Shown piece by piece: positions 27,583 through 60,407 of a stretch of DNA of 64,000 bases. Every line of letters begins with the position of its first letter. Positions within the stretch are counted from its first letter, which is position 1. Source of the stretch: Vagococcus luciliae (GTDB lineage: Bacteria > Bacillota > Bacilli > Lactobacillales > Vagococcaceae); the NCBI RefSeq assembly GCF_024637875.1, contig NZ_CP102451.1, positions 995,001 to 1,059,000 on the forward strand. Direction: 5' to 3'. The notes beneath the pieces are model-generated. The model worked only from the letters and a program-made list of their open reading frames with translations. It was not told where the DNA came from and did not search any database. Made by a program: the position numbers and the translations under genes.

Positions 27583-28450
27583 TATGCTCTTTTAAGGAAT
27601 CTAAAAAGAATCGTGTGGAGGCATTGATTGGTTGATTTTTATTCATCACAACATAAAAATTTTGATGTAAATCAATGTCTTCTAGATGAATTTGGCTAAT
27701 AGATTGATTTATTAGTTCTAAATTGATGGATGATGCATAGATAAAACTAATTCCTCTATTGTGTAAAATCATTTGTTTAATTAAATTAATATTACCGACA
27801 TATTGTTTATGAGAAAAGTAATCGAGTGATAGATTTTGTTTATCTAATAATAGCATCATAGCATCACTGATACCAGATCCTTTTTCTCTAAAAATAACGG
27901 TTTCATTTTCTAAATCTTTTAGAGAAACTTCTTGGTTTGCTAGTGGATGGGAATTTGAGCAAATACAAATAATACTATCTTTAAAAAAGATTTCTTTTGC
28001 TAGTGATTTATCTTCAATCGGACCTGAGATGAGGGCTAAATCAATTTTGTGAGCATGAATCAATTTAAGCAATCCTTTTGTATTATCAACCATTAGAGAG
28101 ATAGACGATTTTGGGTAGCGGTTTGAATATTCGGTAATATATTGTGGAATCCAGTATTCACCAATGGTTTTACTAGCACCGATGCGAAGTGAGACAGTGT
28201 TTGTCAAATAAGAATTAATTTGTAATATCTCACTTTTTAGATTTTTTATTTTTTTATAGAGATAAAGACCTTCAGGGGTAATTGTTAAGGTTTTATCCTG
28301 ATACTTAACAAGGGAAACCCCTAACTCTTTTTCTATATATTGTATATGCTTTGTCACAGCTGGTTGAGTAAAGTTTAAAATTTGGGCTGTTTTTGTATAA
28401 TTTTTTGTTTCTACTAAAACTAAAAACGTATCGTAACGATAATCCAACAT
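27560..28450 (-). CDS. LysR-family transcriptional regulator
   Basis: The 296-residue protein has an N-terminal LysR helix-turn-helix (FLVLVETKNYTKTAQILNFT then QPAVTKHIQYIEKELG, residues 8-50) and a substrate-binding domain from about residue 88. It diverges from the sulfur transport cluster, with 164 bp between. LysR regulators usually activate the divergent operon on binding a small metabolite, so it probably controls the YeeE/CDR/Tau genes in response to sulfur status. It may be CysB-like in role; that is inference from context. A candidate binding site lies at 28535-28549. Confidence 0.88.
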   Translation of the reverse strand: MLDYRYDTFLVLVETKNYTKTAQILNFTQPAVTKHIQYIEKELGVSLVKYQDKTLTITPEGLYLYKKIKNLKSEILQINSYLTNTVSLRIGASKTIGEYWIPQYITEYSNRYPKSSISLMVDNTKGLLKLIHAHKIDLALISGPIEDKSLAKEIFFKDSIICICSNSHPLANQEVSLKDLENETVIFREKGSGISDAMMLLLDKQNLSLDYFSHKQYVGNINLIKQMILHNRGISFIYASSINLELINQSISQIHLEDIDLHQNFYVVMNKNQPINASTRFFLDSLKEHKKTPLTV

Positions 28451-28534
28451 TCCTTTAACCTCCTTATACCTACCCCCCTATTATACATTATTTTTCCATA
28501 AAAAGAATTAACTATGACAATTTAGTATAGCACT

Positions 28535-28549
28535 ATAACAAAGTGTTAT
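28535..28549. promoter_or_regulatory. Candidate LysR operator, ATAACA-AAG-TGTTAT
   Basis: A perfect inverted repeat with 6-bp arms and 3-bp centre fits the T-N11-A form of LysR boxes. It lies between the divergent LysR gene and the YeeE gene, about 66 bp before the YeeE start. Confidence 0.5.
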
Positions 28550-28614
28550 TTTATTTTTGTGATAATTTGCACTAATATAGATTGTGTAATAAGTAACAAG
28601 AAGGAGGAAATAAA

Positions 28615-29928
28615 ATGGAAAATGTCAATATCGATGAAAGGGAATCGTTTAAAAGATTTCAGCCACTCATAGCTATTATTATTGTGATTTTATTATTAAT
28701 GTTTGGTAATTATCTAGGAAATCAGAAAGCGGTTTTACCCATTCAATTATTTTCGGGTGTTTTATTAGGGGCAACATTAACAAGAGCGCGTTTTGGGTTT
28801 GCCGGTGGTATCAAACGAATTTATGTTAGAGGAGAAGGCAGTTTAACGAAAGCGCTATTAATTATGTTGTTTGTTACGATGTTCTTATTTATGGGAATAC
28901 AATGGTATGCAGCGCAAAATGGAGCTGTTCCAGCATTTTTAGCTGCTGAAGGTGAAGCCATTATTCCAGGTACACAAAATGTGTACATGGCTAATTTAGC
29001 AACTATACTTGGTGGAATATTATTTGGAATGGGAATGATATTTGCCGGAGGGTGTGCTTCAGGGACGTTGACTGATATGGGTGAAGGAGAAGGACGTGCG
29101 ATGTTTGTCTTTTTATTCTTTATACTAGGATCAGCACCTGGAGAGTTAGCTAGATACAAATTTGACCAATCATCATTAGGTAAAGTAGGGGTACAAAGTT
29201 ATTTACCTGATACATTTGGTTACATTGGAGCATTAGCCGTATCTGGTTTAATTTTATTATTTATCTATTGGTTAGTTTTAAAATACGAGAAAAAACGTAA
29301 AGAAGAAAATACTTATATGGATCCTTTAGGTGATTGGGAAGACTTTGAGAAACCTTTAGCTATTGAAACCTCTGAAGAAACATCATTGTTTAGTTACAAA
29401 ACATATCATAAATTGTTTATTGAACGTTGGAGTTTTAAAACAGGTGCCGTTGTAATTGCTGTTATTTGTACATTTATATTGTTAACAACGAATAAAGCTT
29501 GGGGTGTGACAAGTGCTTTTTCAAAATTAGAAATCGCTTTATTACAGCCGCTAGGAGTTGAATTTGCTTCTCCTGCATTTGATAAATTAAATATGTCTGT
29601 CAGTGAAGGGTTATTAACAGATGGTGGAACGATTCGAAATTTAGGGATTGTTGTTGGAGCGGCTTTATCATTTTTAATGGCTGGCAGATTTAAATTTGCG
29701 ATGAAATTAAATAAACGAGATATCCCTTACTTTGTTGTTGGTGGTTTATTAATGGGATTTGGCGCAAGACTTGCTAAAGGATGTAATGCTGGGGCAATGT
29801 ATTCAGCCATCTCGACATTCTCAGTATCAGGTTGGGTCTTTACAATTGCAATGGTCGTTGGCGGATTAATTAGTCTAAAACTTTTTGCTGGTAAGATGTC
29901 TTTAATACCAGCAAGTAGAAAAAAATAG
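28615..29928 (+). CDS. YeeE/YedE-family sulfur (thiosulfate-type) transporter
   Basis: The 437-residue polytopic protein has the two signature cysteine motifs of the YeeE/YedE (TsuA) family: FAGGCASGTLTDMGEG near residue 145 and LAKGCNAGAMYSAIS near residue 390. In TsuA, conserved cysteines pass thiosulfate through the membrane. The two-repeat architecture is visible, with a hydrophilic linker around residues 220-260. An AGGAGG ribosome site precedes the ATG. The next gene encodes a persulfide-handling enzyme, supporting a reduced-sulfur substrate. The exact ligand (thiosulfate, sulfide or persulfide) is not determined by sequence. Confidence 0.87.
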   Translation: MENVNIDERESFKRFQPLIAIIIVILLLMFGNYLGNQKAVLPIQLFSGVLLGATLTRARFGFAGGIKRIYVRGEGSLTKALLIMLFVTMFLFMGIQWYAAQNGAVPAFLAAEGEAIIPGTQNVYMANLATILGGILFGMGMIFAGGCASGTLTDMGEGEGRAMFVFLFFILGSAPGELARYKFDQSSLGKVGVQSYLPDTFGYIGALAVSGLILLFIYWLVLKYEKKRKEENTYMDPLGDWEDFEKPLAIETSEETSLFSYKTYHKLFIERWSFKTGAVVIAVICTFILLTTNKAWGVTSAFSKLEIALLQPLGVEFASPAFDKLNMSVSEGLLTDGGTIRNLGIVVGAALSFLMAGRFKFAMKLNKRDIPYFVVGGLLMGFGARLAKGCNAGAMYSAISTFSVSGWVFTIAMVVGGLISLKLFAGKMSLIPASRKK

Positions 29929-29950
29929 AAAATATAGGAGGAGTTTTATC

Positions 29951-31654
29951 ATGAGTAAACGCGTATTAATTATCGGTGGGGTTGCAGGGGGAGCATCAAC
30001 TGCAGCACGAGTTAGAAGAATAGATGAATTTGCAGAAATTATTATGTTTGAAAAAGGGCCTTTCGTTTCATTCTCAAACTGTGCTTTACCATTTCATTTA
30101 AGTGGTGTAGTAGCTGAGGCAGATGATTTAGTTTTAATGTCTCCAGAGGTTTTCCATAAACAATATAATATTACGGCAAAAGTGAATCATGAAGTGATTG
30201 CTATCCATCCAGAAGAAAAGAAAATTACAGTAAAAAATGTGTTAACTGGTGAAACAATGGATGAAGAATACGATGAATTAGTATTATCACCAGGAGCAAA
30301 TCCTATTCTACCAAAAAGTATTAAAGGAATTGGATCAGATCATGTCTTTACTGTGAGAAATGTTCCTGACATTGATGCTATCAAGCATTATATTGATGAC
30401 AATCATATTAAAGATGTTGCAGTTGTTGGTGCTGGATTTATTGGGATTGAAGTGGCAGAAAACTTACAAATGGCTGGAAAACATGTCACCATTATTGAAG
30501 CAGCAAATCAAGTCATGGCACCGTTTGACTATGATATGGCTCAGATTTTACATAAAGAAATTATTGATAATGAGGTTGACTTAGTATTAGAAGATGGCGT
30601 GAAAGAAATCTTCTCAGATAGAGTGGTATTAGAGTCTGGTAAAGAAATACCTGCGAAAGCAGTGATTATGGCAATTGGGGTAACACCTGAATTAACATTA
30701 GCTAAATCAGCTGGATTAGAAATAGGAGAAACTGGCGGTATTAAAGTGAACCATCATTATTTAACATCTAAACCACATATTTATGCAGTTGGTGATGTGA
30801 TTGAAACAACTCACTTTATCACTCAAAAACCAACACGTTTAACTTTAGCAGGACCAGCTCAACGTCAAGCAAGAGCTGCGGCAGATCATATGTATGGTAA
30901 AACTTATCGTAATACAGGCGTTATCGGTTCATCAGTGATTCAATGTTTTGGTATGAATGCCGCGTCAACTGGTCTAAATGAAAAAGATTGTCAACGAGAA
31001 GGTATTGCTTACCAAACGGCATATGTTATCCCTAAAGATCGTGTAGGTCTTATGCCTAATGCGAAACCATTATTCTTTAAACTAATCTTTGCAGATCCTT
31101 CTGGACAAATTTTAGGCGCTCAAGCAATGGGACAAGGAAATGTTGACAAACGAATTGATGTCATCGCAGCAATGATTATGAATCATGCGAATATCGAAGA
31201 TTTAAAAGAATTGGAATTATCTTATTCTCCAATGTTTGGTACAGCCAAAGATGTGGTTAATATGGCAGCACTTGTTGCGATGAACGTTCTAAATGGAGAG
31301 TACAAACAAGTTCCCGTAACCGAAATTAGAGAGTTAGTGGAAAAAGATGCCTTTATTATTGATGCACGTGAACCACATGAATATGCTGAAGGGCACATTG
31401 TAAATGCAGTAAGTATTCCATTTAGTGAATTCCGTCAACGTTTGGATGAAATTCCAAAAGACAGACCAGTTTATGTCCATTGTTTATCTAGTCAACGTAG
31501 TTATAACATGGTAAAAGCACTACAAGCACATGGTTTTGATAATGTCTTTAACTTAATGGGGTCATTCTTAGGTGTTTGTATGTACGAATATTTCAATGAT
31601 CAACAAACAGGTCGTAACCCAATTGTGACAAATTATCGTTTCGACTTATTATAA
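29951..31654 (+). CDS. CoA-disulfide reductase / rhodanese fusion (persulfide reductase type)
   Basis: This 567-residue flavoprotein opens with the FAD fold VLIIGGVAGGASTAARVRR. It carries the redox cysteine C44 in SFSNCALP, an NAD(P)H fold (VAVVGAGFIGIEVAENL near residue 157), and a second FAD motif (IYAVGDVIE). A C-terminal rhodanese domain begins near residue 465 and has active cysteine C511 in HCLSSQRS. The fusion matches CoA-disulfide reductase isoforms that reduce CoA or other low-molecular-weight persulfides to sulfide. It follows the YeeE gene by 22 bp, so imported reduced sulfur may be handed to it. A terminator hairpin follows the stop. Confidence 0.92.
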   Translation: MSKRVLIIGGVAGGASTAARVRRIDEFAEIIMFEKGPFVSFSNCALPFHLSGVVAEADDLVLMSPEVFHKQYNITAKVNHEVIAIHPEEKKITVKNVLTGETMDEEYDELVLSPGANPILPKSIKGIGSDHVFTVRNVPDIDAIKHYIDDNHIKDVAVVGAGFIGIEVAENLQMAGKHVTIIEAANQVMAPFDYDMAQILHKEIIDNEVDLVLEDGVKEIFSDRVVLESGKEIPAKAVIMAIGVTPELTLAKSAGLEIGETGGIKVNHHYLTSKPHIYAVGDVIETTHFITQKPTRLTLAGPAQRQARAAADHMYGKTYRNTGVIGSSVIQCFGMNAASTGLNEKDCQREGIAYQTAYVIPKDRVGLMPNAKPLFFKLIFADPSGQILGAQAMGQGNVDKRIDVIAAMIMNHANIEDLKELELSYSPMFGTAKDVVNMAALVAMNVLNGEYKQVPVTEIRELVEKDAFIIDAREPHEYAEGHIVNAVSIPFSEFRQRLDEIPKDRPVYVHCLSSQRSYNMVKALQAHGFDNVFNLMGSFLGVCMYEYFNDQQTGRNPIVTNYRFDLL

Positions 31655-31660
31655 AATTTA

Positions 31661-31699
31661 TTGGGGCAAAACAGTAAGGGATTTTGCCCCAATCTTTTT
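31661..31699 (+). terminator. Terminator after CDR gene, inside the sulfur cluster
   Basis: TTGGGGCAAAA (31661-31671) pairs perfectly with TTTTGCCCCAA (31682-31692), followed by TCTTTTT. It lies between the CDR gene and the ABC importer genes with only 25 bp left before the next start, so it may act as a partial terminator. Confidence 0.88.
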
Positions 31700-31723
31700 A
31701 AATTAAAAAAGGTTGGTGAAGAT

Positions 31724-32509
31724 ATGAAAAAGAAACAAACCAAGAGTTATAAAGGATATACCTATGCCACATGGCTCATTATTTTAGTTGCATGGCTAAT
31801 TGTGACAGAAACAAACTTGGTCTCTTCACGATTGATTCCTTCACCAATTCAAGTGGTCAAAACAGCAGGTGATATTTTTATTAATGGATACAATGGTATG
31901 TCCTTTTGGCAACATATAGGGATTAGTTTATATCGCTTAATTGTATCTAGTTTTTTAGCTGTATTAACGGCTATTCCATTGGGATTAATGAGTGGCTATT
32001 TTCCAAGATTTAGAGCAGTGGTTGATTCCCTTGTTCAATTTTATCGTCCACTACCACCACTTGCTTATTATACGTTATTAATTTTATGGTTAGGAATCGA
32101 TGAGTCACCAAAGATTATGTTATTATATTTAGCTGCTTTTGCCCCAATATATCTATCATGTGTTTCAGCAGTGAGGAAAATTCCAATTGATTACATCAAT
32201 AATGCTGAGTCATTGGGTGCAAGTAAGAAAGATATTTTCTTTACCGTCATTTTACCAGGGAGTTTACCTGATATATTTACTGGGTTAAGAACAGCTGTTG
32301 GAGTTGCATATACTACGCTTGTATCAGCAGAGATGGTGGCTGCAACAAGTGGTATTGGTTGGATGGTGATTGATGCATCAAAATATTTAAAAAGTGATGT
32401 CATGTTTGTCGGGATTATTTTTATGGGGTTAACTGGCATTTTGATTGATATGGGACTGCGTTTAGTTGAAAAGCGTGTGGTCTTTTGGAAGGGAAGAGAT
32501 GAATCGTGA
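31724..32509 (+). CDS. ABC transporter permease, TauC/SsuC type
   Basis: The protein has 261 residues and about six hydrophobic segments. The conserved EAA-like loop is NAESLGASKKDIFFTVILPGSLP near residue 167. This matches BPD-type permeases for taurine, sulfonate or nitrate. I start at ATG 31724, after the terminator; an upstream TTG at 31661 lies inside the hairpin stem and would add residues with no family similarity. The gene overlaps the binding-protein gene (GTGA), so the three ABC genes are coupled. Substrate class is inferred from family and sulfur context. Confidence 0.86.
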   Translation: MKKKQTKSYKGYTYATWLIILVAWLIVTETNLVSSRLIPSPIQVVKTAGDIFINGYNGMSFWQHIGISLYRLIVSSFLAVLTAIPLGLMSGYFPRFRAVVDSLVQFYRPLPPLAYYTLLILWLGIDESPKIMLLYLAAFAPIYLSCVSAVRKIPIDYINNAESLGASKKDIFFTVILPGSLPDIFTGLRTAVGVAYTTLVSAEMVAATSGIGWMVIDASKYLKSDVMFVGIIFMGLTGILIDMGLRLVEKRVVFWKGRDES

Positions 32510-33543
32510 CAAGAAGAAAAAAAGGTAGGCTAATATTACTACTTAGTATCATTATTTTAGTATTTACTGGATGCTCCTCTAAGTCAAAAGATGAGGAAGG
32601 TGCTTTACCAAAAGAAGTAAAAATCGGAATTATTCGTGTACCAAATGATAAGCAAGTGGCGATTTCTCAAAAGTATTTTGACGAATTTTTTAAAGATAAA
32701 GGAATTAAAACAAAATTTATGTTTTTTGATTCAGGTGTAGCGGCAAACAAAGCTCTCTCATCAAACAGCATTGATTTTGCAGAGATGGGTTATACCAATG
32801 GGGTTGTTGCTTTAGCGACAGATATCCCGGCTGAATTGATTTGGATTCATGAAGTATTGGGAACCAATGAAGCATTAGTGACACCAAAGGATTCTAGTAT
32901 TACAGATATTAAACAACTTAAAGGGAAGAAAATAGCTACACCTTTTAGTTCGACATCTCATTTTAGTCTCTTACAAGCATTAAAATTAGCTGGTATTGAA
33001 AAAGAAGTGACGCTACTTGATATGGAAACGAATGATATTGTGGCAGCTTGGGAACGTGGTGACTTAGATGCTGCTTATACATGGGAGCCTACATTATCCA
33101 CTTTAAAAGAGACAGGAAACGTATTGATAGATAGTGAAACATTGGCGAACAAAGGATTTATGACGGTTAATATAGATTTAGTGAATGCAGAATTTAGTAA
33201 AAAATACCCTGAACTTGTTCAAGAGTATGTTAAAGCTTTAAACAAAGGGGTAGAGTATTATAATGAAAATCCTGATGGAGCAGCAAAAGGCGCAGCGACA
33301 GAATTAGGAATTGAAACCAACGATGCTTTAACACAAATGCAAGGAACAACTTGGTTAATGATGAATGAACAAGTATCTCCAGATTACTTAGGAACAGAAG
33401 CAACACCGGGTAAATTTCATCAAGTATTTAAGGACACAGCAGAATTTTTAGCTGAGCAAAAATCTATTTCTAATGTACCAAGTGATGAAGATATTAATCA
33501 TTTTATCAATACGACTTACATCGAAAAAGCGATGGAAAAATAG
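32506..33543 (+). CDS. ABC substrate-binding lipoprotein, TauA/SsuA type
   Basis: A GTG start gives 345 residues with an N-terminal lipoprotein signal (hydrophobic core then LVFTGCSS; lipidated cysteine near residue 23). The mature domain carries features of NMT1/TauA-like binding proteins, for example SIDFAEMGYTNGVVAL, LKGKKIATPFSSTSHFSL and WERGDLDAAYTWEP. It should sit on the outer membrane face and deliver an organosulfur ligand to the permease. The start overlaps the permease stop. The ligand is unknown; no sulfonate monooxygenase or dioxygenase gene is nearby. Confidence 0.87.
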   Translation: MTRRKKGRLILLLSIIILVFTGCSSKSKDEEGALPKEVKIGIIRVPNDKQVAISQKYFDEFFKDKGIKTKFMFFDSGVAANKALSSNSIDFAEMGYTNGVVALATDIPAELIWIHEVLGTNEALVTPKDSSITDIKQLKGKKIATPFSSTSHFSLLQALKLAGIEKEVTLLDMETNDIVAAWERGDLDAAYTWEPTLSTLKETGNVLIDSETLANKGFMTVNIDLVNAEFSKKYPELVQEYVKALNKGVEYYNENPDGAAKGAATELGIETNDALTQMQGTTWLMMNEQVSPDYLGTEATPGKFHQVFKDTAEFLAEQKSISNVPSDEDINHFINTTYIEKAMEK

Positions 33544-33555
33544 GGAGGAATTTAT

Positions 33556-34335
33556 ATGCCACCAATTAAAGAGCCGTTAATTGAATTAACAGAGGTAACA
33601 CAAGCATTTAACTCGGTCGAATCAAAATCGAATCCAATAATTAATCATCTTAATTTATCTATGCATGACGGCGAATTTGTTAGTGTGGTGGGTCCCTCAG
33701 GGTGTGGAAAAAGCACGTTGCTTAATTTAATAGCAGGTTTTCTCATTCCAACAAGTGGAAGTATCAAGATGAGAAATCAAGTTATCGCAGGGCCAAATAA
33801 AACTAGAGGTGTAGTCTTTCAATCTCCGACATTGTACCCTTGGCTTTCAGTAGAGCAAAATATTGCGTACGGGCTTAAAAGGCAAAAACTACCGACTAAT
33901 GAGATAAATGAAGCAGTTAAAGTATTAGTGGAAAAAGTTGGATTAAATGGATCGGAAAAAAAATATCCTTTTGAATTATCTGGAGGGATGAAACAGCGAG
34001 TATCTATCGCTAGAGCCATGGTCAATGAACCTGACTTATTACTAATGGATGAGCCGTTTAGTGCATTAGACGCGATTACAAGACGAAATATGCAAGGGTT
34101 ATTACGAAAGTTATGGAAAGAAAATCATCAAAGTATTTTTATGATTACTCATGATATAGAAGAAGCACTTAAATTAAGTACAAGGGTATTAGTTTTTCCT
34201 AAAAATAATCCTGGTAAATTAAAAGAATATCAATTTGATTTTACAAAAAAAATAGCGCAAGATTCAACATATGAACCTGATACAGATGAGGAATTTCAAA
34301 AAAATAAACTGATGTTATTAAATGATATTATGTAA
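33556..34335 (+). CDS. ABC transporter ATP-binding protein, TauB/SsuB type
   Basis: The 259-residue ATPase has Walker A VGPSGCGKSTLLNL near residue 49, the Q-loop VVFQSPTLYPWLS, signature LSGGMKQRVSIARA near 146 and Walker B LLLMDEPFSALDA. Switch histidine is in ITHDIEEA. The family distinguishes nitrate/sulfonate/taurine importers by this Q-loop form. It completes the importer with the two preceding genes. About 100 bp without a gene follow. Confidence 0.92.
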   Translation: MPPIKEPLIELTEVTQAFNSVESKSNPIINHLNLSMHDGEFVSVVGPSGCGKSTLLNLIAGFLIPTSGSIKMRNQVIAGPNKTRGVVFQSPTLYPWLSVEQNIAYGLKRQKLPTNEINEAVKVLVEKVGLNGSEKKYPFELSGGMKQRVSIARAMVNEPDLLLMDEPFSALDAITRRNMQGLLRKLWKENHQSIFMITHDIEEALKLSTRVLVFPKNNPGKLKEYQFDFTKKIAQDSTYEPDTDEEFQKNKLMLLNDIM

Positions 34336-34433: not shown

Positions 34434-35045
34434 GTGAGTAAAAAAATTATAAAACGTTGTCTTTTATGTCTAATCCTTTTATTTTTGATTGCGTGTAGTT
34501 GGTATGTTTGGCAGTTGAAAAAACATGTCACCCAAACTCTAAAATGGGAGCCCTTAGTGAAGACTGTTTTGGAAGAAGAAGGCATGGATCAATATGAGGA
34601 TCTTGTATTAGCTATCATATTTACTGAAACAAAAGGAAATAGTGTTGATGTAATGCAAAGTAGTGAAAGTAAGTATGGAGAACAAAATAAAATAACGTCA
34701 GAAAAAGAGAGTATTACGAGTGGCGTGACACACTTGGCAGAGGCCATAAAATATGCACTTGATAATGATTGTGATACTTGGACGGGGGTTCAAGCATACA
34801 ATTTTGGTACAAGTTATGTTGATTATGTGGTTAATCATGGGAAGAAGAATTCTCTAGAGTTGGCAGAAACCTATTCTAAAGAGGTGTTAGCACCAATGTT
34901 AGGCAATTCAACAGGTGCTACCTATCATTACTATGAACCAATTGCATTACTTCATAATGGTGGTAAATTATATCAAAATGGTGGAAACTTCTTTTATGCT
35001 GAACTTGTTAAACGAAATATGAAAATTATTAACATATTATCATAG
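34434..35045 (+). CDS. Lysozyme-like lipoprotein/membrane-anchored muramidase-type domain protein
   Basis: The 203-residue protein has an N-terminal hydrophobic segment (residues 8-26, with ACS as a possible lipobox). A lysozyme-like domain follows with a likely catalytic glutamate in IIFTETKG near residue 64 and DVMQSSES after it, as in the CwlT N-terminal domain. GTG at 34434 is the start because the ATG at 34430 runs into a stop after three codons; an AAGGAG ribosome site is 10 bp upstream. No partner peptidase domain is present. It probably acts on peptidoglycan outside the cell. The hairpin terminator begins right after the stop. Confidence 0.78.
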   Translation: MSKKIIKRCLLCLILLFLIACSWYVWQLKKHVTQTLKWEPLVKTVLEEEGMDQYEDLVLAIIFTETKGNSVDVMQSSESKYGEQNKITSEKESITSGVTHLAEAIKYALDNDCDTWTGVQAYNFGTSYVDYVVNHGKKNSLELAETYSKEVLAPMLGNSTGATYHYYEPIALLHNGGKLYQNGGNFFYAELVKRNMKIINILS

Positions 35046-35085
35046 AAAACTCCTAATGGCTGGTGTCCATTAGGAGTTTTCTTTA
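35046..35085. terminator. Hairpin terminator, copy 1 (left border of the unknown cassette)
   Basis: AAAACTCCTAATGG (35046-35059) pairs perfectly with CCATTAGGAGTTTT (35067-35080), then CTTTA. The stem is the same as that at 37587-37623. Confidence 0.9.
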
Positions 35086-35142
35086 TATATACACATTATA
35101 ATCTACATTATTTTCTTAAATACATACGTTACGTGTTATAAA

Positions 35143-35172
35143 TTGTTTAAATACAGTAAAAGTGCATATTAT
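35143..35172 (+). promoter_or_regulatory. Candidate promoter of the unknown four-gene cassette
   Basis: TTGTTT (35143-35148), 18-bp spacer and TATTAT (35167-35172) give a plausible sigma-A promoter about 60 bp before the first cassette gene. Confidence 0.5.
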
Positions 35173-35230
35173 GATGATTTAATTGTTTATTATCATTTGT
35201 AATGTATTGGAAAGATTATTTAGGAGGAAC

Positions 35231-35908
35231 ATGTTAATGTATAGGGATAAATTTTACTTGGTTATTAAAAACATTAAGAATTATGCTTTTAATAATAAAA
35301 AGGTGTGTATAGGATTAGGGATTATTGTTATGTTGATTGTGGCTAATGTAGTTACATCATTAACAGCAATATCAAATATTTCAACAACTTTAGAAAAAAA
35401 GAAAGAGTATATTCAAGAAACAAAAAATATACAAAATAGAATTAGTGATATAAAAAAAGAAACAAATCAATTGACTAGAAAAAAAGTGGAAGTAGAGAAT
35501 GACAATAAAAAAGGTGATGAGGAGATTCAAAAGAGTCAAAAAATTTATGAACAATTTGACTCACTTATTGAAGAGAGTAATCGTTTAGGTGAACAGAGAA
35601 TTCGAGAAAGTAGTCATAAAAAGAAAAAAGAATTAACAAAAGAAGAAATCATAGAGATGATTAATTTAGCTGAAAATAAACAATTGGAAGAAAAAAATAT
35701 AAACATATTTTTCTCAAAAAATAAACTTGAGGCTGTTGTAAGAAATGATAAATTAAATTTTGTTGTCGTAAAACCAGATGAAAATGATTATATATTTGTT
35801 ATGAGGTTGAGCCATGACAAACAACTTGAAAAGGTAAGTGTGATTAATTTTAATGAGAAAAAAATAGAGATGGTAAAAGATTATAGTGATAGAGAGGTAG
35901 GTATTTAA
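35231..35908 (+). CDS. Unrecognised single-pass coiled-coil membrane protein (cassette gene 1)
   Basis: I do not recognise this 225-residue protein. From ATG 35231, which follows GGAGG, a short basic cytoplasmic tail leads into one transmembrane helix near residues 28-48 (GLGIIVMLIVANVV). A long Lys/Glu-rich coiled coil spans about residues 55-150, and a small folded-looking C-terminal domain of about 60 residues ends the protein. The next gene starts immediately after its stop codon. A bitopic helix plus coiled-coil layout is seen in assembly scaffolds such as PilN/PilO or FtsL-type proteins, but no sequence motif supports either. Confidence 0.75.
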   Translation: MLMYRDKFYLVIKNIKNYAFNNKKVCIGLGIIVMLIVANVVTSLTAISNISTTLEKKKEYIQETKNIQNRISDIKKETNQLTRKKVEVENDNKKGDEEIQKSQKIYEQFDSLIEESNRLGEQRIRESSHKKKKELTKEEIIEMINLAENKQLEEKNINIFFSKNKLEAVVRNDKLNFVVVKPDENDYIFVMRLSHDKQLEKVSVINFNEKKIEMVKDYSDREVGI

Positions 35909-36553
35909 ATGAAGGAAGAAAAAGTATTTAAATACATGTCTATTATTTTAAAAGTATTATGTATTTGGTCACTGACGATATTTGCTTTAAGGATATTAGA
36001 GTATCAAGAAAAAAATGCTAGTAAGAAATTATCAGATATAAGAGCTCAAGAGACTGAAGAAATATCAAAATATCAGGAATTACAAAATGAAATAGAAGAA
36101 TTATCAGACCAAAATAGAACGCGTAACGTGATGCATGGAACAGATGATTTATTGTATTGGTATAATGAACAAACGTATAATGAATTTAAAAACAATATAA
36201 AAGAAATGAAAAAAAACGAAAAAGTTTATTCGGCTTTACCAAAGGATACACAAATTTTTAAAGTGATGAGAGATGTATTACCAGAACATGAACAAATTGG
36301 TGGGATTCAATATCAAACGTATTTTACTAAAGATACTAGTGTGACAGACGATGTGATTTCTTTACACAAATCATTTGGATCAAAAGATGGATACGATCTT
36401 TTTATGTTTGGACCGTATGCTTTAGTTCTTAGCTTTGATGACAACTCAAATAAATTTAATAGTGAAGTGTTGATGACAGGAATTGATGATAATTTAAATA
36501 TTTCCCCCAAAAAATATAATATTAATCAGATAATGATGCGAGGAGACGAATAA
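35909..36553 (+). CDS. Unrecognised single-pass coiled-coil membrane protein (cassette gene 2)
   Basis: This 214-residue protein begins at an ATG directly abutting the previous stop. A transmembrane helix lies at about residues 10-30 (SIILKVLCIWSLTIFAL), a predicted coiled coil at about 32-70, and a C-terminal soluble domain at about 75-214 with no motif I know. The architecture mirrors gene 1, suggesting the two may be partners in one membrane complex. The stop overlaps the next start (36553), so translation is probably coupled. Function unknown. Confidence 0.75.
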   Translation: MKEEKVFKYMSIILKVLCIWSLTIFALRILEYQEKNASKKLSDIRAQETEEISKYQELQNEIEELSDQNRTRNVMHGTDDLLYWYNEQTYNEFKNNIKEMKKNEKVYSALPKDTQIFKVMRDVLPEHEQIGGIQYQTYFTKDTSVTDDVISLHKSFGSKDGYDLFMFGPYALVLSFDDNSNKFNSEVLMTGIDDNLNISPKKYNINQIMMRGDE

Positions 36554-36870
36554 TGAATAATCTAATAGACCACTACAAACAAAATAGCTTAGTCATTTTA
36601 TTTTTTTTAGCAACTACGCTGACATGTTTAAATATATCAAGTATCTTGTTTATCTTATCATTAATCTTAACAGTATTGACTATTACGATACCTATTTGGT
36701 TTTCAAAAAAAGATGTATCATTATATGATGAAATTGCAAGTATAGTTAATAAATTATTACTTAAAATGAAAAGTTATAATGAATCATATAAACAAAAAAG
36801 AGCAAATGATTTTAAACAACAGTTGAGAGATATCGAAACAGCGCAAAAAAACAATACGATGCCTTATTAG
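36553..36870 (+). CDS. Unrecognised small two-helix membrane protein (cassette gene 3)
   Basis: The 105-residue product has two hydrophobic segments (about residues 13-33 and 34-53) forming a hairpin, then a basic, Lys/Gln-rich cytoplasmic-looking tail (KMKSYNESYKQKRANDFKQQ). I find no family match by eye. It overlaps gene 2 and is followed by gene 4 after 2 bp. It could be a holin-like or scaffold component, but nothing specific supports that. Confidence 0.68.
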   Translation: MNNLIDHYKQNSLVILFFLATTLTCLNISSILFILSLILTVLTITIPIWFSKKDVSLYDEIASIVNKLLLKMKSYNESYKQKRANDFKQQLRDIETAQKNNTMPY

Positions 36871-36872
36871 AA

Positions 36873-37508
36873 ATGGCTATGCTTAATATACCTCTTGAAA
36901 AACGAGATGTTGTTTTGAATATCATTGATTCTCTAGAAAATAATGAAGGGAAAAATCTTATTATAGCATTAAGTGGTGGTAATGTTGATAGAATGGCAGT
37001 TTATAAGATTTTAAATAATCTAAATAAAGCAGATAGAGATATATTACAACCCATTATTGATAAAATAAACACCGAAAAAATGCATGATAATATAATGAAT
37101 CAAAATATATCGAACTCTGATGTTACATATCAAGGCTTTTCTATGCAAAAAAGTGGTGTGTGGTTAAATATTTTAATCATTTTATTAGGGACAATTTTTT
37201 TAGTATTTGCATATAAGTTTCTTTTAAGTATGGGCATAGGTATTGGGTTATCAACTTCGATGGTGGGTATTATCGCTATTGCTTTTTTCTTTAGTTTACT
37301 TCATTATTTACCTACTTTTATTTATCATGCTTCACTAGGTGGGAAAATATTAATGTTTATTGCCAATTCGTTAATATCAGTCTTTTTAATTGCAACACCT
37401 ATTGCTTGGCTGATTTTATTAGTAATCGCAAATTCTCAAAATAAAAAAGAACGATACAAACAAGAAGTAAGTCATTTATTAAAGAATATGAATCAAAATA
37501 AGAGATAA
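36873..37508 (+). CDS. Unrecognised multi-pass membrane protein (cassette gene 4)
   Basis: The 211-residue protein has a soluble N-terminal region (residues 1-95) resembling a small helical fold with the phrase IALSGGNVDRMAVYKIL. Three to four hydrophobic segments follow from about residue 100 to 190, and a basic tail ends in KKERYKQEVSHLLKNMNQNKR. No family recognised. It is the last gene of the cassette; 78 bp later comes the second copy of the border hairpin. All four genes are compact and same-strand with near-zero spacing, so they likely form one unit. Confidence 0.72.
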   Translation: MAMLNIPLEKRDVVLNIIDSLENNEGKNLIIALSGGNVDRMAVYKILNNLNKADRDILQPIIDKINTEKMHDNIMNQNISNSDVTYQGFSMQKSGVWLNILIILLGTIFLVFAYKFLLSMGIGIGLSTSMVGIIAIAFFFSLLHYLPTFIYHASLGGKILMFIANSLISVFLIATPIAWLILLVIANSQNKKERYKQEVSHLLKNMNQNKR

Positions 37509-37586
37509 AGGAAATTAGGTTTATGAAGAATTAACGTTTTTTTATTTAGGAAAAGAAAACTAGATACTAGGAAATAAGTCAAAATT

Positions 37587-37623
37587 AAAAACTCCTAATG
37601 GACATCTGCCATTAGGAGTTTTT
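37587..37623. terminator. Hairpin terminator, copy 2 (right border of the unknown cassette)
   Basis: AAAAACTCCTAATGG (37587-37601) pairs perfectly with CCATTAGGAGTTTTT (37609-37623). The carbonic anhydrase stop codon lies in the right arm. The stem repeats that at 35046-35080, and the loop ACATCTG is close to the reverse complement of the other loop CTGGTGT. Confidence 0.92.
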
Positions 37624-38277
37624 ATTGAATGATTTAAATAAGACTTTTCGTCCGTTTAATGGTTGCGTATGACGAGAATTGTTAGCATGGAAATGTTTTA
37701 ATGTGTTGATTTGTTCAGCCGAAATTTCCACAGTTTCTTTAAAAAGATACCATTCCACATTTTCAGTTAGTGGTGGAGTAGTTAAAGATCCTAGATAATG
37801 ATAATAATCAGAAATTTTAGGTAATAAGTCGTATAGATAAACATTATGAATAGATTTATTTGTGTTAACAGCATCTAATAATGTTTGTAGAGTATTATTA
37901 TGGGCTCCCTCAACTAAAAAAACACCTAAAACAGCTAAACGACCATTTTGAGCCTCATGGACAAAATGAAGCTCTGCATCAGATATTTTTCCATCAATTT
38001 TATGTTCGCTATGAGTATGAAAATGGAATTGTTGTAGATTGAAAAACCGATTGTTAATATTAGCGGCTCCAGTTGCTAATCCTTGAATGGCAGATCCAGT
38101 ATCAAAAATAGCATCAACAGTACGAGAATAGGTTAGTTGCAACTTTCCCATATCCATCATTGGTTCTAAAAGACTTGTGTCTATATCAATAGGTGATTGT
38201 GACATTGAATGTTCACAACACCAGTCATGCTGATTTGCATAGTTCCAATCAAGTATGGGGGCATCAAAATGTTTCAT
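37612..38277 (-). CDS. Alpha-class carbonic anhydrase, no signal peptide
   Basis: The 221-residue protein fits alpha-carbonic anhydrases: CEHSMSQSPIDI, the zinc histidines H85 and H87 in QFHFHTHSEH, H104 in AELHFVH, and SLTTPPLTENVEW holding the catalytic threonine. It interconverts CO2 and bicarbonate. Most bacterial alpha-class enzymes are exported; here the start MKHFDAPILDWNY carries no signal, so the enzyme is probably cytoplasmic, providing bicarbonate for carboxylation. The gene is convergent to the lysozyme-like gene and the inserted cassette. Family call firm. Confidence 0.93.
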   Translation of the reverse strand: MKHFDAPILDWNYANQHDWCCEHSMSQSPIDIDTSLLEPMMDMGKLQLTYSRTVDAIFDTGSAIQGLATGAANINNRFFNLQQFHFHTHSEHKIDGKISDAELHFVHEAQNGRLAVLGVFLVEGAHNNTLQTLLDAVNTNKSIHNVYLYDLLPKISDYYHYLGSLTTPPLTENVEWYLFKETVEISAEQINTLKHFHANNSRHTQPLNGRKVLFKSFNKNS

Positions 38278-45927: not shown

Positions 45928-45972
45928 AAAAGAAGCTGACTAATCAAAATTGGATTTGTCAGCTTCTTTTTT
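45928..45972. terminator. Bidirectional terminator between PFOR and Mga-type gene
   Basis: AAAAGAAGCTGAC (45928-45940) pairs perfectly with GTCAGCTTCTTTT (45958-45970). The convergent regulator's stop codon begins at 45940 inside the left arm, so the element serves both genes. Confidence 0.88.
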
Positions 45973-47454
45973 GTTAATCAAATTAAAAATATTATCAGCT
46001 TCTTTTTCTTTTAGTAAAGAAGTTAACGAAGAAAATGAAGTGTCAATACAATTTAGTGGAAGTATCATCACATTTTCTTTTTTTAATTCTTCATGAAAAT
46101 TGAATGATTTTGTAAATACTAAGATATTATTTTCGTGGTTTTTAAGCGTATTGATTGGCTCTGCACCTAACAGGAATTCTTTTATCATAAATTTATTGAA
46201 AGAAAGGTTATTATAGAGCAAATGTTTCATTAACTTATGATCAGCAATGGACTCGCTGACGATGGTTAGCGTCAAAGTAGGTGTGAGAAAACGTAGTAAA
46301 TTCGTTAACAACATAGTGAAGTAATTTAGTTCACTATAGGAAACAGCTTCTATAATATTAAGTTCCTTTTCACAGTTTATTTTTACTTGAACTAATCGAT
46401 TGTATATTTCTTTGTCCAGGTCAGACTTTAGAACATTGCAATCATAATTATTTATTTTTATTAGGTGATGTAAATTAAATAAATAGCGTTTATATAAATA
46501 AAAAATACCTGTTTTAAAATCTGGTAGTTTGACAATATCAGAGCCAAAATAGTGTTCAATTAAATTAATTAAATAGGTAACTCTATCTTGACTATAGACT
46601 ATTTCTTTAACTTGTATTTTATCTTGTTCAGACCATTGATTTGAAAAAAGTGGATTTTTGGTGGAACAGTAAACTAAAAAAATATAATCATAATCAGACT
46701 TTGACCAGTTAAGTGGTCCAAATAATTGGTCGAGATATGATGGTAACATTTTATAAATAAAAATAGTTTTTAATTCTTCAAATTCTTCATTATCAGGTAA
46801 CGAATAATCAGGGTTATATCGAATCCATGAAAGCATAATTAGATGTTCGAAAAAACCATATTCTTCTTGTGAATGTTCAAGAAAATCGAAAGAAATGAAA
46901 GAATTAGTCTCGCAAATAAATTGACGTACTTTATAAGTATCTTTGGGAGTGATCTCGTAACAATGTATCCCATAGTTAAAAGCTAATGTTGAAATAAGAT
47001 AACGTATTCTGTATTCGTCACCTTTTATTTTATAGTTATGGGTTTCCAGTCCAATATAGTGTAAAAAGGATTTACAAGAATTAATGACTCTATAGGCATT
47101 TGCTTTTGAAATATAGATGGAATCAATAAAGTCATTCAACGTTTGGTTAGTATTTGTCACTAAAAATTTTAAAGCAAGTAAAACATTAGATTGTTGATAA
47201 ATAATATGTTGTATCTGTCGGCAAGATAAATCGCATAATGAAGTTAGTGAGTAAACATTGGGTTTTATTTCATTAATGGAAATGTATGTATCTAGAAGTC
47301 GCTCCAGTTCTTTTATAGTATTTAATATTTTTACTTTTGAGAATTGAGTGACTTCAATTAAATCATTCATATGACTGTATTTCTTATTAAATAAAATTTT
47401 AAATATTAAAATCTCATCTTTTACTCTGTTTTCAATATGATTATCTAACAGCAT
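45940..47454 (-). CDS. Mga-type helix-turn-helix transcriptional regulator
   Basis: The 504-residue protein has an N-terminal winged-helix region (about residues 15-60) and a second helix-turn-helix (LNDFIDSIYISKANAYRVIN, near residue 106), the Mga two-domain pattern. A long PRD-like region follows, and the C-terminal part resembles an EIIB-like fold. Mga proteins activate surface adhesin genes in streptococci and enterococci. The LPXTG adhesin gene diverges from it with 178 bp between, so this is its likely activator. Assignment rests on domain pattern and context. Confidence 0.78.
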   Translation of the reverse strand: MLLDNHIENRVKDEILIFKILFNKKYSHMNDLIEVTQFSKVKILNTIKELERLLDTYISINEIKPNVYSLTSLCDLSCRQIQHIIYQQSNVLLALKFLVTNTNQTLNDFIDSIYISKANAYRVINSCKSFLHYIGLETHNYKIKGDEYRIRYLISTLAFNYGIHCYEITPKDTYKVRQFICETNSFISFDFLEHSQEEYGFFEHLIMLSWIRYNPDYSLPDNEEFEELKTIFIYKMLPSYLDQLFGPLNWSKSDYDYIFLVYCSTKNPLFSNQWSEQDKIQVKEIVYSQDRVTYLINLIEHYFGSDIVKLPDFKTGIFYLYKRYLFNLHHLIKINNYDCNVLKSDLDKEIYNRLVQVKINCEKELNIIEAVSYSELNYFTMLLTNLLRFLTPTLTLTIVSESIADHKLMKHLLYNNLSFNKFMIKEFLLGAEPINTLKNHENNILVFTKSFNFHEELKKENVMILPLNCIDTSFSSLTSLLKEKEADNIFNLINKKEADKSNFD

Positions 47455-47530
47455 AAATGCGCCCCTTCCCTAAATAGCTATAATCTATTATATTCTAATT
47501 TGTTTAAAAAAGAGAAGACCTGTTATTATA

Positions 47531-47574
47531 TTTTTCTCAAAAAAATTTTATTTTAAAAAAAATAATGAGAAAAA
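47531..47574. promoter_or_regulatory. Inverted repeat between Mga-type and adhesin genes
   Basis: TTTTTCTCA (47531-47539) and TGAGAAAAA (47566-47574) are exact inverted copies 26 bp apart, about 60 bp upstream of the adhesin start. A binding site for the divergent regulator is possible; the A/T-rich sequence makes chance matches likelier. Confidence 0.35.
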
Positions 47575-47632
47575 AATGAAAAATAATTTGTTATTCTTTA
47601 AATTGAAATAAGTTTGGAAGGGAAATAAAGGT

Positions 47633-50600
47633 ATGAAAATAAAGAAAATAAGCCATTTTTTAATGGCAGTTATGGTGTTACCTTATTTTAGTGGATTAAG
47701 CGTTTTAGCTGAGAAAAAGCCGATTAATGATGCTTATGATAAGCAAGAAGAGGTTGTCAAAGAAACAAAATGGTATAAGGAAAAGAAAATAACGTTAAAA
47801 GCAAAAAAAAGCCAGGAATTTGTAGAACCAACACCAATTGATTATGAAATTTTAATCGATGGTTCAGGCTCTATGCGTGATACTGGTAGTTTGGAAACAA
47901 CAAAAGCTGTTTTAAAAGACTTTATTAACACGAGAAATAAAAAGACAGATAGAGTAGGATTATCGGTATTTAGAGGACCTGGTTATGATACAGTAAATAA
48001 TACGATGTTATATGAAGTTATAACAGATACTATTAGTGATTATGATAATAATTTTGATGAACTAAACCAAAAAATTGATGGGTTAAAATCAGGAGGATTA
48101 ACACCTTTACTTGATGGGCTTAACCATTCATTAAACAAAATGAATACTACAAGTCGAAAAGATGCGAGAAAGGTATTAATCGTTTTTTCTGATGGGCATC
48201 CTAATATTGGACCCAAGAGAGATTATGTTATTACTAAAAATGCTTTGAGAGGTGCTGAGCAATATATAAATCCCCAAGTGAATTATCCAGGAAATAAAGC
48301 AATCGAGTTAAGAAAAGAGATTGATGAATTTTATGAAAAGGGAGATATTGAGTCAGATTTATATTTACAAAAGGAAAAAGAATTAAATGAATTAGATAAT
48401 AAGTTTCCATTGGGATACAAAAATGTAAATTTTGATAACCCTTCAGATAGAGTTAATAAAGATTTTGAAGGAAGACGTTATGAAAATCATATACAAGAGT
48501 TTTATGATTTAGCAGACATGATCACGAAAAAAGCAACAGATATAAAAAAACAAGGTTATGAAGTGTATACCATTTATTTAGATAACTCGAAAAGCGATTC
48601 TTACTCAAAGATTATTAATAAAAATGGTGAAGTAGAATCATTATTTAAGAATATGGCACAAGATTCTAATCATTATTTTTCTGCAAGCAATGTCAATTTA
48701 TTAAGCCAATCTTTTAAAGAGTTGGATAATACCATTAAAAAATATACTTATGAAATTCATGATGACATCGAACAAGGATATACATTAATGCCAGAGACGA
48801 TTAAATCAGATAAGGATAATGTGTTAGTTAATCATGATGATAAACAGATACAATGGACATCATCAGGAGTAGATTATGAAGAGTTAACTGTTTCATATCA
48901 TATATATAAGGAAATTTCTGAGGGAAATGTCGTGGTGAAACACGTAGATGAATCAGGCAAAGAATTGGTGGAACCTGAAACAAAAACTGATACAGTTGGC
49001 GAAAAATATGAGACAACGTCAAAAGAAATTCCAGAATATGAGTTGGTAACAACGCCAACTAACGCCAATGGTGAATTCAAAGAGGGCACACAAGAAGTTA
49101 TCTATGTGTACAAGCCAAAGGCAGATGTACCGTCTGTTGTGGAAGGCACCATTGTGGTGAAACATGTGGACGAAAGTGGCAAAGCAGTCGCAAAACCTGA
49201 AACAAAAACCGATGAAGTGGGTAAAAAATACGAGACTGAATCAAAAGAGATCCCAGGTTATGAGTTAGTGACCACACCAACTAACGCCACTGGTGAATTT
49301 AAAGAAGGCACACAAGAAGTTATCTATGTGTACAAGCCAAAGGCAGATGTACCATCTGTTGTGGAAGGCACCGTTGTGGTGAAACATGTGGACGAAAGTG
49401 GCAAAGCAGTCGCAAAACCTGAAACAAAAACCGATGAAGTGGGTAAAAAATACGAGACTGAATCAAAAGAGATCTCAGGTTATGAGTTAGTGACCACACC
49501 AACTAACGCCACTGGTGAATTTAAAGAAGGCACACAAGAAGTTATCTATGTGTACAAGCCAAAGGCAGATGTACCGTCTATTGTGGAAGGTACCGTTGTG
49601 GTGAAACATGTGGACGAAAGTGGCAAAGCAGTCGCAAAACCTGAAACAAAAACCGATGAAGTGGGTAAAAAATACGAGACTGAATCAAAAGAGATCCCAG
49701 GTTATGAGTTAGTGACCACACCAACTAACGCCACTGGTGAATTTAAAGAAGGCACACAAGAAGTTATCTATGTGTACAAGCCAAAGGCAGATGTACCATC
49801 TGTTGTGGAAGGCACCGTTGTGGTGAAACATGTGGACGAAAGTGGCAAAGCAGTCGCAAAACCTGAAACAAAAACCGATGAAGTGGGTAAAAAATACGAG
49901 ACTGAATCAAAAGAGATCCCAGGTTATGAGTTGGTGATTACACCAACTAACGCCACTGGTGAATTTAAAGAAGGCACACAAGAAGTTATCTATGTGTACA
50001 AGCCAAAGGCAGATGTACCATCTGTTGTGGAAGGCACCGTTGTGGTGAAACATGTGGACGAAAGTGGCAAAGCAGTCGCAAAACCTGAAACAAAAACCGA
50101 TGAAGTGGGTAAAAAATACGAGACTGAATCAAAAGAGATCCCAGGTTATGAGTTGGTGATTACACCAACTAACGCCACTGGTGAATTTAAAGAAGGCACA
50201 CAAGAAGTTATCTATGTGTACAAGCCAAAGGCAGATGTACCATCTGTTGTGGAAGGCACCGTTGTGGTGAAACATGTGGACGAAAGTGGCAAAGCAGTCG
50301 CAAAACCTGAAACAAAAACCGATGAAGTGGGTAAAAAATACGAGACTGAATCAAAAGAGATCCCAGGTTATGAGTTGGTGATTACACCAACTAACGCCAC
50401 TGGTGAATTTAAAGAAGGCACACAAGAAGTTATCTATGTGTACAAGCCAAAGGCAGATGTACCATCTGTTGTGGAAGGCACCGTTGTGGTGAAACATGTG
50501 GACGAAAGTGGCAAAGCAGTCGCAAAACCTGAAACAAAAACCGATGAAGTGGGTAAAAAATACGAGACTGAATCAAAAGAAATCCCAGGTTATGAGTTGG

Positions 50601-50917
50601 TGACCACACCAACTAACGCCACTGGTGAGTTTAAAGAAGGCACACAAGAAGTGATCTATGTGTACAAGCCAATTAAACAAATTATTACTAAAGAGGGTAA
50701 TTCTAATGAAACGAATACGATAGAAAAACCATCAAGTAAGCCGATATCACAAGATGTAATAAAATATGAAAAGAAGAATAATAATGTCGTTTCAAAAAAT
50801 GAACTAACGAAAACATTACCTAAAACAGGTGATATAGAAAAAATAAACTATCTATTAATGGGATTAATATCAGTAATTGGTTCTTTTGGAATGTTAATTT
50901 TAAGAAGAAAAAAATAA
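47633..50917 (+). CDS. LPXTG-anchored adhesin with VWA domain and MucBP repeats
   Basis: This 1094-residue surface protein has a signal peptide (cleavage near residue 26, SVLAEKK). A von Willebrand A domain follows, with the metal site DGSGSM near residue 81, and then a pilus-tip-like linker. Eight tandem 74-residue MucBP-type repeats run from about residue 430 (VVKHVDESGK, YELVTTPTN, EVIYVYKPK). The wall anchor is LPKTGDIE, a hydrophobic helix and RRKK. Sortase should link it to peptidoglycan, with the VWA head binding host or mucin ligands. It diverges from a Mga-type gene, and a terminator follows. Confidence 0.93.
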   Translation: MKIKKISHFLMAVMVLPYFSGLSVLAEKKPINDAYDKQEEVVKETKWYKEKKITLKAKKSQEFVEPTPIDYEILIDGSGSMRDTGSLETTKAVLKDFINTRNKKTDRVGLSVFRGPGYDTVNNTMLYEVITDTISDYDNNFDELNQKIDGLKSGGLTPLLDGLNHSLNKMNTTSRKDARKVLIVFSDGHPNIGPKRDYVITKNALRGAEQYINPQVNYPGNKAIELRKEIDEFYEKGDIESDLYLQKEKELNELDNKFPLGYKNVNFDNPSDRVNKDFEGRRYENHIQEFYDLADMITKKATDIKKQGYEVYTIYLDNSKSDSYSKIINKNGEVESLFKNMAQDSNHYFSASNVNLLSQSFKELDNTIKKYTYEIHDDIEQGYTLMPETIKSDKDNVLVNHDDKQIQWTSSGVDYEELTVSYHIYKEISEGNVVVKHVDESGKELVEPETKTDTVGEKYETTSKEIPEYELVTTPTNANGEFKEGTQEVIYVYKPKADVPSVVEGTIVVKHVDESGKAVAKPETKTDEVGKKYETESKEIPGYELVTTPTNATGEFKEGTQEVIYVYKPKADVPSVVEGTVVVKHVDESGKAVAKPETKTDEVGKKYETESKEISGYELVTTPTNATGEFKEGTQEVIYVYKPKADVPSIVEGTVVVKHVDESGKAVAKPETKTDEVGKKYETESKEIPGYELVTTPTNATGEFKEGTQEVIYVYKPKADVPSVVEGTVVVKHVDESGKAVAKPETKTDEVGKKYETESKEIPGYELVITPTNATGEFKEGTQEVIYVYKPKADVPSVVEGTVVVKHVDESGKAVAKPETKTDEVGKKYETESKEIPGYELVITPTNATGEFKEGTQEVIYVYKPKADVPSVVEGTVVVKHVDESGKAVAKPETKTDEVGKKYETESKEIPGYELVITPTNATGEFKEGTQEVIYVYKPKADVPSVVEGTVVVKHVDESGKAVAKPETKTDEVGKKYETESKEIPGYELVTTPTNATGEFKEGTQEVIYVYKPIKQIITKEGNSNETNTIEKPSSKPISQDVIKYEKKNNNVVSKNELTKTLPKTGDIEKINYLLMGLISVIGSFGMLILRRKK
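48920..50674 (+). repeat. Eight tandem 222-bp MucBP-coding repeats
   Basis: Repeat units start at 48920, 49142, 49364, 49586, 49808, 50030, 50252 and 50474, with an exact 222-bp period. Unit 1 is divergent; units 2-8 are nearly identical at the DNA level, differing in a few bases (for example GTGACC versus GTGATT before ACACCAACT). Unit 8 breaks off into the stalk near 50674. Copy number may vary by recombination. Confidence 0.95.
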
Positions 50918-56998: not shown

Positions 56999-57562
56999 AT
57001 GAAATTAGAAAATGTTTTAACAATTAAGTTAGGTTTAAACTTATCTCGTCAAAAAGATAAAGAAGATATCCCTATATATGCTAATAAAGATATGTTGGAC
57101 GATTTAGAACAATTAGACATTAATCCGCCAGAAAAAGAGATTATTCCATTTGATGATGGGACACATACTGTTAGAACAGGTGATATTGTTTATAATTTTA
57201 TTAATACAGTATGTGGCATTGTCAGTCCCAAACACGATGGAAAAACAATTAATCAAAATTTTGCTAAGATCATTATAGATGACGAAAAAATAGATGCGAA
57301 ATTTTTATGCTATTTATTAAATGAATCATCCGAAATTGAGCGACAAAAATTTATATCTTTTCAAGGGACAATAATAAAAAAACTATCGCCTAGTATGATA
57401 CAGGCTTTTGATGTCACGCTACCACCACTGGAAGCACAAAAAAAGATTGGACAATTATATTTTGATTCATTAAAACGGCGAGCTTTAAATAAAAGAGAGC
57501 AAGAGTTAGAAACTATTATAATAAAAAATGTATTAGATAACATGATGAAAGTTAAAAGGTGA
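56999..57562 (+). CDS. Half-length HsdS-like protein (single target-recognition-like domain)
   Basis: The 187-residue protein resembles one half of a type I specificity subunit. A recognition-domain-like region (TGDIVYNFINTVCGIVS, then TINQNFAKIII and KFLCYLLN) is followed by the usual switch LPPLEAQKKIGQLYFDS and a coiled-coil helix. It lacks a second domain, and its helix differs from those of the full HsdS (59154). It lies 6 bp ahead of hsdM, so it is co-transcribed. It may dimerise as an alternative S subunit or be a regulator; neither is proven. Confidence 0.78.
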   Translation: MKLENVLTIKLGLNLSRQKDKEDIPIYANKDMLDDLEQLDINPPEKEIIPFDDGTHTVRTGDIVYNFINTVCGIVSPKHDGKTINQNFAKIIIDDEKIDAKFLCYLLNESSEIERQKFISFQGTIIKKLSPSMIQAFDVTLPPLEAQKKIGQLYFDSLKRRALNKREQELETIIIKNVLDNMMKVKR

Positions 57563-57568
57563 ATATAA

Positions 57569-60338: not shown

Positions 60339-60343
60339 AAAGC

Positions 60344-60370
60344 GTCGATAGGTGTTTATCGCCTATCGAC
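60344..60370. other. Perfect 9-bp hairpin between hsdS and hsdR
   Basis: GTCGATAGG (60344-60352) and CCTATCGAC (60362-60370) are exact inverted copies with a 9-base loop. No T run follows, so it is not a typical terminator; it may affect mRNA stability or separate S from R expression. Confidence 0.6.
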
Positions 60371-60407
60371 AACTTATCAAAATTGTTGGTTAAAAAGGAG
60401 TGAAAAA

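Follow-up and report, generated by a model that had tools for sequence, protein, structure and literature searches.

A four-gene block encoding predicted membrane proteins between two terminator hairpins in Vagococcus luciliae

Chromosomal hotspots that lack recognisable mobile elements, and whose flanking core genes undergo frequent recombination, have been described (Oliveira et al. 2017, PMC5635113). The locus analysed here, found in a 64,000-nucleotide stretch of the Vagococcus luciliae genome (the window), resembles these integrase-less turnover hotspots in having species-specific, changing content between two conserved neighbours and no mobile element. It differs from them in that the insertion point is a terminator hairpin, and that each block has this hairpin to its left and to its right; the main text of the same paper contains neither the word ‘terminator’ nor the word ‘convergent’. 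We found no published description of a terminator acting as an exact insertion junction and present on both sides, which is no proof that none exists, and this combination seems unusual.

The proteins encoded by the block can also be compared with described systems. PilN and PilO of type IV pili, and GspL and GspM of type II secretion systems, are encoded by consecutive genes for single-pass proteins with a coiled coil and a C-terminal domain, as are the first two proteins here. FtsL and DivIC (FtsB) resemble the same two proteins in layout only, with a single N-terminal transmembrane (TM) segment, an outward-facing coiled coil and a small C-terminal part. PycTM of the Pycsar systems and the 2TM effectors of CBASS share with the fourth protein a helix followed by a TM segment.

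The main new result is the location of the block: insertion at a duplicated terminator did not feature in the first-pass annotation of this DNA, which had treated the four genes as a single unit on the basis of their packing and shared topology. That they form a single unit is supported by the genome comparison, in which they appear as one block, in one piece, at one site, with a hairpin on each side. In our view, the block probably represents an accessory operon that arrived recently at an insertion hotspot, with no recognisable recombinase.

The site and the inserted block

The features of the site are listed in Table 1. The carbonic anhydrase gene, which gave no NCBIfam match at 1e-10, is convergent to the block, and the right hairpin serves both ORF4 and, on the other strand, this gene. 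DNA homology to two sister species (G001 and G011) stops at 35080 and restarts at 37588. The two hairpins have predicted RNA folding energies of about -24 kcal/mol (left) and about -21.5 kcal/mol (right), with z about -7 to -9 (about -8 for the left one); their stems are identical and their loops differ at 6–7 of the 7 bases. Searched for across the 2.15-Mb genome in a single pattern search (CCTAATGG-N(3-12)-CCATTAGG), the hairpin arms CCTAATGG and CCATTAGG occur in two places only, the left hairpin and position 37594.

Table 1 Features of the block and its surroundings (window coordinates)
Feature	Position	Strand	Description
Lysozyme-like gene (PF13702)	34434..35045	+	Left neighbour; in 14/14 genus genomes
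Left terminator hairpin	35044..35082	.	Perfect stem of 16 bp, loop of 7 nt (CTGGTGT); follows lysozyme-like gene
Inserted AT-rich block	35081..37587	+	2507 bp; bounded by homology breaks vs sister genomes
Promoter-like match	35146..35175	+	TTTAAA-18-TATGAT; weak match to consensus, located after left terminator and before ORF1
ORF1	35231..35908	+	225 aa; TM segment at N-terminus, then coiled coil; beta strands predicted for C-terminal part (low confidence)
ORF2	35909..36553	+	214 aa; TM segment at N-terminus, then coiled coil; beta strands predicted in C-terminal part (low confidence)
ORF3	36553..36870	+	105 aa; two-TM hairpin and charged C-terminal helix
ORF4	36873..37508	+	211 aa; N-terminal helical part (~80 residues) and 3–4 TM
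Right terminator hairpin	37586..37624	.	16-bp perfect stem, 7-nt loop ACATCTG
Alpha-type carbonic anhydrase gene	37612..38277	-	Right neighbour; called by sequence motifs; in 14/14 genus genomes

The GC content of the block is 25.9%, whereas the remainder of the window, rRNA excluded, has 32.7%. Its dinucleotide usage is host-like (delta 38.9, inside the host window range of 20.5–119), so that composition alone is no proof of foreign origin, and the dinucleotide signature lends a foreign origin no support. As regards a transposon or IS-type insertion, none of the four ORFs matched a transposase or recombinase family (Pfam, NCBIfam, PHROGs). No integrase, transposase or tRNA gene is found beside the block in the ORF list of the region, and the only tRNA in the window is at 19429.

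Three other parts of the window also vary between species. A gene that by its appearance encodes an Mga-like regulator, together with that for an LPXTG surface protein with around eight near-identical 74-aa repeats (45940–50917), is missing from both G008 and G012; judging by repeat-rich matches, the number of repeat copies in the surface protein may differ between sisters. The region at 27619–33834, comprising a LysR regulator, a thiosulfate/YeeE-type transporter, a CoA-disulfide reductase-rhodanese and a taurine-like ABC transporter operon, is missing as one block in G011, the flanks of which are ~97% (left) and 79% (right) identical. Finally, type I restriction-modification genes occupy 56999–63563 (an extra specificity-like fragment, HsdM, HsdS and HsdR), of which HsdS and most of HsdR have no DNA match in G001.

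Filled and empty sites in related species

In three sister species (G001, G011 and G012; each species in our comparison is represented by one genome) the site is empty: the lysozyme-like and carbonic anhydrase genes lie ~20–30 bp apart and share one hairpin, a single bidirectional terminator of the form CTCCTAATGG-loop-CCATTAGGAG. The G011 hairpin, for example, is AGAAAACTCCTAATGG-TATCTAG-CCATTAGGAGTTTTTA. The flanks in G001 are ~90% identical in DNA to those in the window. In G008, the site is filled (contig C1, about 627.1–628.4 kb), with ~1.3 kb unrelated to the V. luciliae block lying between the same neighbours. This second insert encodes two small TM proteins (71 and 120 aa) and has one further short frame; its ORFs have no Pfam match above cut-off, and reading of the insert revealed no integrase, transposase or tRNA target.

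The G008 insert is also flanked by the hairpin on both sides, with ~32 bp, corresponding to the whole hairpin, repeated almost exactly (loops TATCTCG and TATCTCGG). The two G008 copies are thus nearly identical, loop included, unlike the single copy in its sister G012 (loop TGTCTAG), as predicted by duplication within the G008 lineage. In V. luciliae, the arms are repeated exactly but the loops differ. Loops are unlike even between close sisters (G001 TTTGAATG, G011 TATCTAG), implying that they evolve fast at this site. The G001 loop TTTGAATG resembles the sequence immediately beyond the right arm of the hairpin (ATTGAATG), a pattern that could be the trace of template switching at a palindrome.

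When syntenic stretches of five species, ~360 kb in all, were scanned for same-arm hairpin pairs, intergenic pairs were found at the V. luciliae and G008 sites only; the other pairs all belong to the repeats within the gene for the surface protein (47633–50917). Across these syntenic stretches, therefore, doubling of the hairpin goes with the presence of an insert at the site.

Between the same flanking genes there is thus 2.5 kb in V. luciliae, 1.3 kb in G008 and nothing in G001, G011 and G012, and the junctions have neither an integrase or transposase gene nor a tRNA target. The best explanation for two unrelated blocks and three empty sites is that insertion at the shared terminator has happened repeatedly. 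The two insertions would have been independent, each either duplicating the hairpin or bringing a second copy; the second copy might arise by target duplication, by template switching at the palindrome or by import with the block. After insertion, both old genes and the new operon would each keep a terminator. Selection offers a simple explanation for this arrangement: an insert to one side of the shared terminator would presumably cost one neighbour its terminator, and only those bounded by a hairpin at each end would be harmless. Two points weigh against the insertion account: differences at 6–7 of 7 loop positions are not expected from a fresh, simple duplication, and three deletions between hairpins could replace two gains. 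For the reading as a whole, in which a self-contained accessory operon was acquired recently at an insertion hotspot of the genus and its four proteins form an envelope complex, our confidence is about evenly balanced.

The second of these points leads to the alternative that the block is old in the genus, a lineage-old envelope operon lost in the sister species by deletion between the hairpins. Such a deletion between near-identical hairpins would give exactly the single-hairpin empty site seen, the host-like dinucleotide usage of the block is in keeping with long residence, and the two hairpins would have had time for complete loop divergence. The genomes of the other 13 species in the genus carry none of the four genes at any position, however, which would call for at least three losses at the site plus loss elsewhere, and the G008 block at the same site is unrelated. 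We therefore regard an old block as rather unlikely, if a serious contender.

A little more doubtful still is the possibility that the four genes are a remnant of a larger phage or conjugative element (surface or entry-exclusion genes, for example) with no function as a unit now. The block is AT-rich and encodes genus-unique membrane proteins of no recognised family, and small two-TM proteins and coiled-coil single-pass proteins are common in phage and conjugative elements. Set against this, tblastn found no match in 72,556 plasmid records (four ORFs singly) or 50,697 phage records (ORFs 2 and 4, and all four joined), there is no match in PHROGs, and a pattern scan of the IMG/VR viral contigs with all four ORFs, which reaches close relatives only, revealed none. 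Nor does any integrase, relaxase or phage gene adjoin the block, which has a terminator at each end and in which no frame is broken.

The four genes and their predicted products

The first-pass annotation described four tightly packed genes, overlapping or with gaps of 0–2 bp, and the junctions are indeed as described: ORF1 and ORF2 abut (0 bp), the ORF2 stop and ORF3 start overlap by 1 bp, and 2 bp separate ORF3 from ORF4. The start of ORF1 is more likely to be the in-frame ATG at 35237 than that at 35231, because an AGGAGG at 35222–35227 lies 9 nt upstream of it; this gives a protein of 223 aa. ORF4 has no ribosome site of its own and is probably translated by coupling. Promoter-like matches in the region are no commoner than in shuffles.

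Hydropathy analysis also agrees with the topologies first proposed, with ORF1 and ORF2 each having one N-terminal TM segment, ORF3 a hairpin of two TM segments, and ORF4 3–4 TM segments after a soluble, helical N-terminal region. Measured against shuffles, the heptad periodicity of a coiled coil is genuine in ORF1 (p=0.0015) and weaker in ORF2 (p=0.02), and the positively charged N-termini of the two proteins suggest an N-in, C-out orientation. Their ‘similar architecture’ holds for layout but not for sequence, mutual comparison having revealed no similarity among the four proteins. The structure prediction called for by the first-pass annotation was of partial help: the AlphaFold model of ORF4 (pLDDT 76, pTM 0.33) could be used for a fold search, with no match at E<0.1, but that of ORF1 and ORF2, joined with the in-frame TAA between them read as G, was too poor to use (pLDDT 44).

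The description of the system as undescribed has also stood, the four proteins being unmatched in every library and genome sample searched; the survey of co-occurrence proposed in the first-pass annotation accordingly yielded no second genome carrying any of the genes. With Pfam and NCBIfam, no family scored above its cut-off for any of them, and neither PHROGs nor PADLOC gave anything convincing for any of the four, the PADLOC matches being weak and partial; in all four collections, sub-threshold matches cover TM or coiled-coil stretches only. Sequence searches of the PDB with ORFs 1, 2 and 4 found no credible match. A pattern scan of GTDB genome contigs with ORFs 4 and 2, reaching close relatives only, found no relatives, nor did searches of 28 other genomes of the family and of samples of ~230–400 Lactobacillales or Bacilli genomes, in which the ORFs covered varied by set. 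The joined-protein genome search, in which few candidates were scored per genome, is weak for ORFs 1 and 3 and was supplemented by further searches. Genome matches at E 1e-5 to 1e-2 were discarded as short, mostly TM or coiled-coil stretches, mostly of much longer or broken frames, as was an ORF3 match in another species of the genus (G009) that lies in a 562-aa transporter-like protein.

From topology and coupling, it is plausible that the four predicted membrane proteins form one complex. The most likely product, as far as can be judged from the sequences, would be a cell-envelope complex comprising two outward-facing coiled-coil proteins and two membrane-embedded subunits. Outside the membrane, ORF1 and ORF2 might associate by way of their coiled coils, and ORF3 and ORF4 might form a membrane-embedded base, the four proteins together making up one envelope complex; we propose both of these steps with low confidence. 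The weak promoter-like site, the operon's own terminator, the overlapping or abutting genes and the complementary topologies fit such a complex.

The layout shared with the division and pilus proteins introduced above raises the possibility that ORF1 and ORF2 are a diverged coiled-coil pair of the FtsL/DivIC or PilN/PilO type with accessory membrane subunits. Both proteins have a short cytoplasmic N-terminus, one TM segment, a coiled coil and a small beta-rich C-terminal part, and ORF2 matches the FtsL model with 14.3 bits (E 0.029). This score is well under the cut-off of 42.45, however, and the match comprises 48 residues of TM segment and coiled coil, as any such protein would give. The two ORFs are also much longer than FtsL and DivIC, there is no division-gene neighbourhood and no PDB match, and PilN/PilO and GspL/M show no sequence match. 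We consider a diverged pair of this kind improbable. The ATPase, platform protein and prepilin/pilin genes of a type IV or competence pilus module are likewise not found in or beside the operon.

Weak PADLOC matches to ORF4 (residues 37–113), to a ‘2TM’ effector (E 7e-4) and to PycTM (E 9e-4, 0.007 and 0.15), raise the further possibility that this protein acts as the membrane effector in a defence system based on nucleotide signalling, and seven locally shuffled copies of ORF4 gave no such match. The matches extend over one helix and one TM segment, mostly to profile ends, however, and ORF4 has further TM segments. Furthermore, it has no Pycsar, CBASS or SLATT match in Pfam or NCBIfam and no similar fold, and there is no nucleotide cyclase gene in the block. 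An effector of this type is very unlikely in our estimation, and we treat the PADLOC matches to ORF4 as a possible lead, not as a classification.

The four genes are real. In 1000 first-order Markov shuffles of the block, the longest stop-to-stop frame was 158 aa (99th percentile 136 aa); ORFs 1, 2 and 4 all exceed this maximum and so are not chance frames, and in each of them codon position 1 is the GC-richest, matching host genes. For ORF3, the good ribosome site (AGGAG) and the start overlapping ORF2 argue for a real gene. That AT-rich intergenic DNA has been misread as genes in some or all cases is therefore hardly credible, given these frame lengths, the host-like position-1 GC and the ribosome sites and coupled starts, even though homologues were found nowhere in the data searched and ORF3 by itself is within chance length and has no codon-position GC pattern.

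Implications for species-restricted gene content

Species-restricted blocks in hotspots are a frequent source of new defence and competition systems, and no part of the four-gene block was recognisable in any library searched. Restriction to one species and residence at a site of turnover fit exclusion, defence or competition better than housekeeping. The function that we judge likeliest, though still tentatively and as a minority possibility, is that the complex would act against, or detect, phages, mobile DNA or rival bacteria.

The site itself raises the question of why two unrelated blocks in two species should occupy the same terminator hairpin, with the hairpin on both sides. One answer would be that intrinsic terminator hairpins act as landing sites for cassettes, the hairpin being doubled without a cassette recombinase and the cassettes being fast-turnover, undescribed membrane systems. 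We put this forward as a long shot. Were it true, the landing process would double the hairpin, so that each new operon would arrive bounded by terminators and its neighbours would be unharmed. Should landing at hairpins prove to be general, a duplicated terminator would provide a simple signature for finding such blocks in other genomes, and it is this signature, directly testable in more genomes, that is the main source of interest in the locus.
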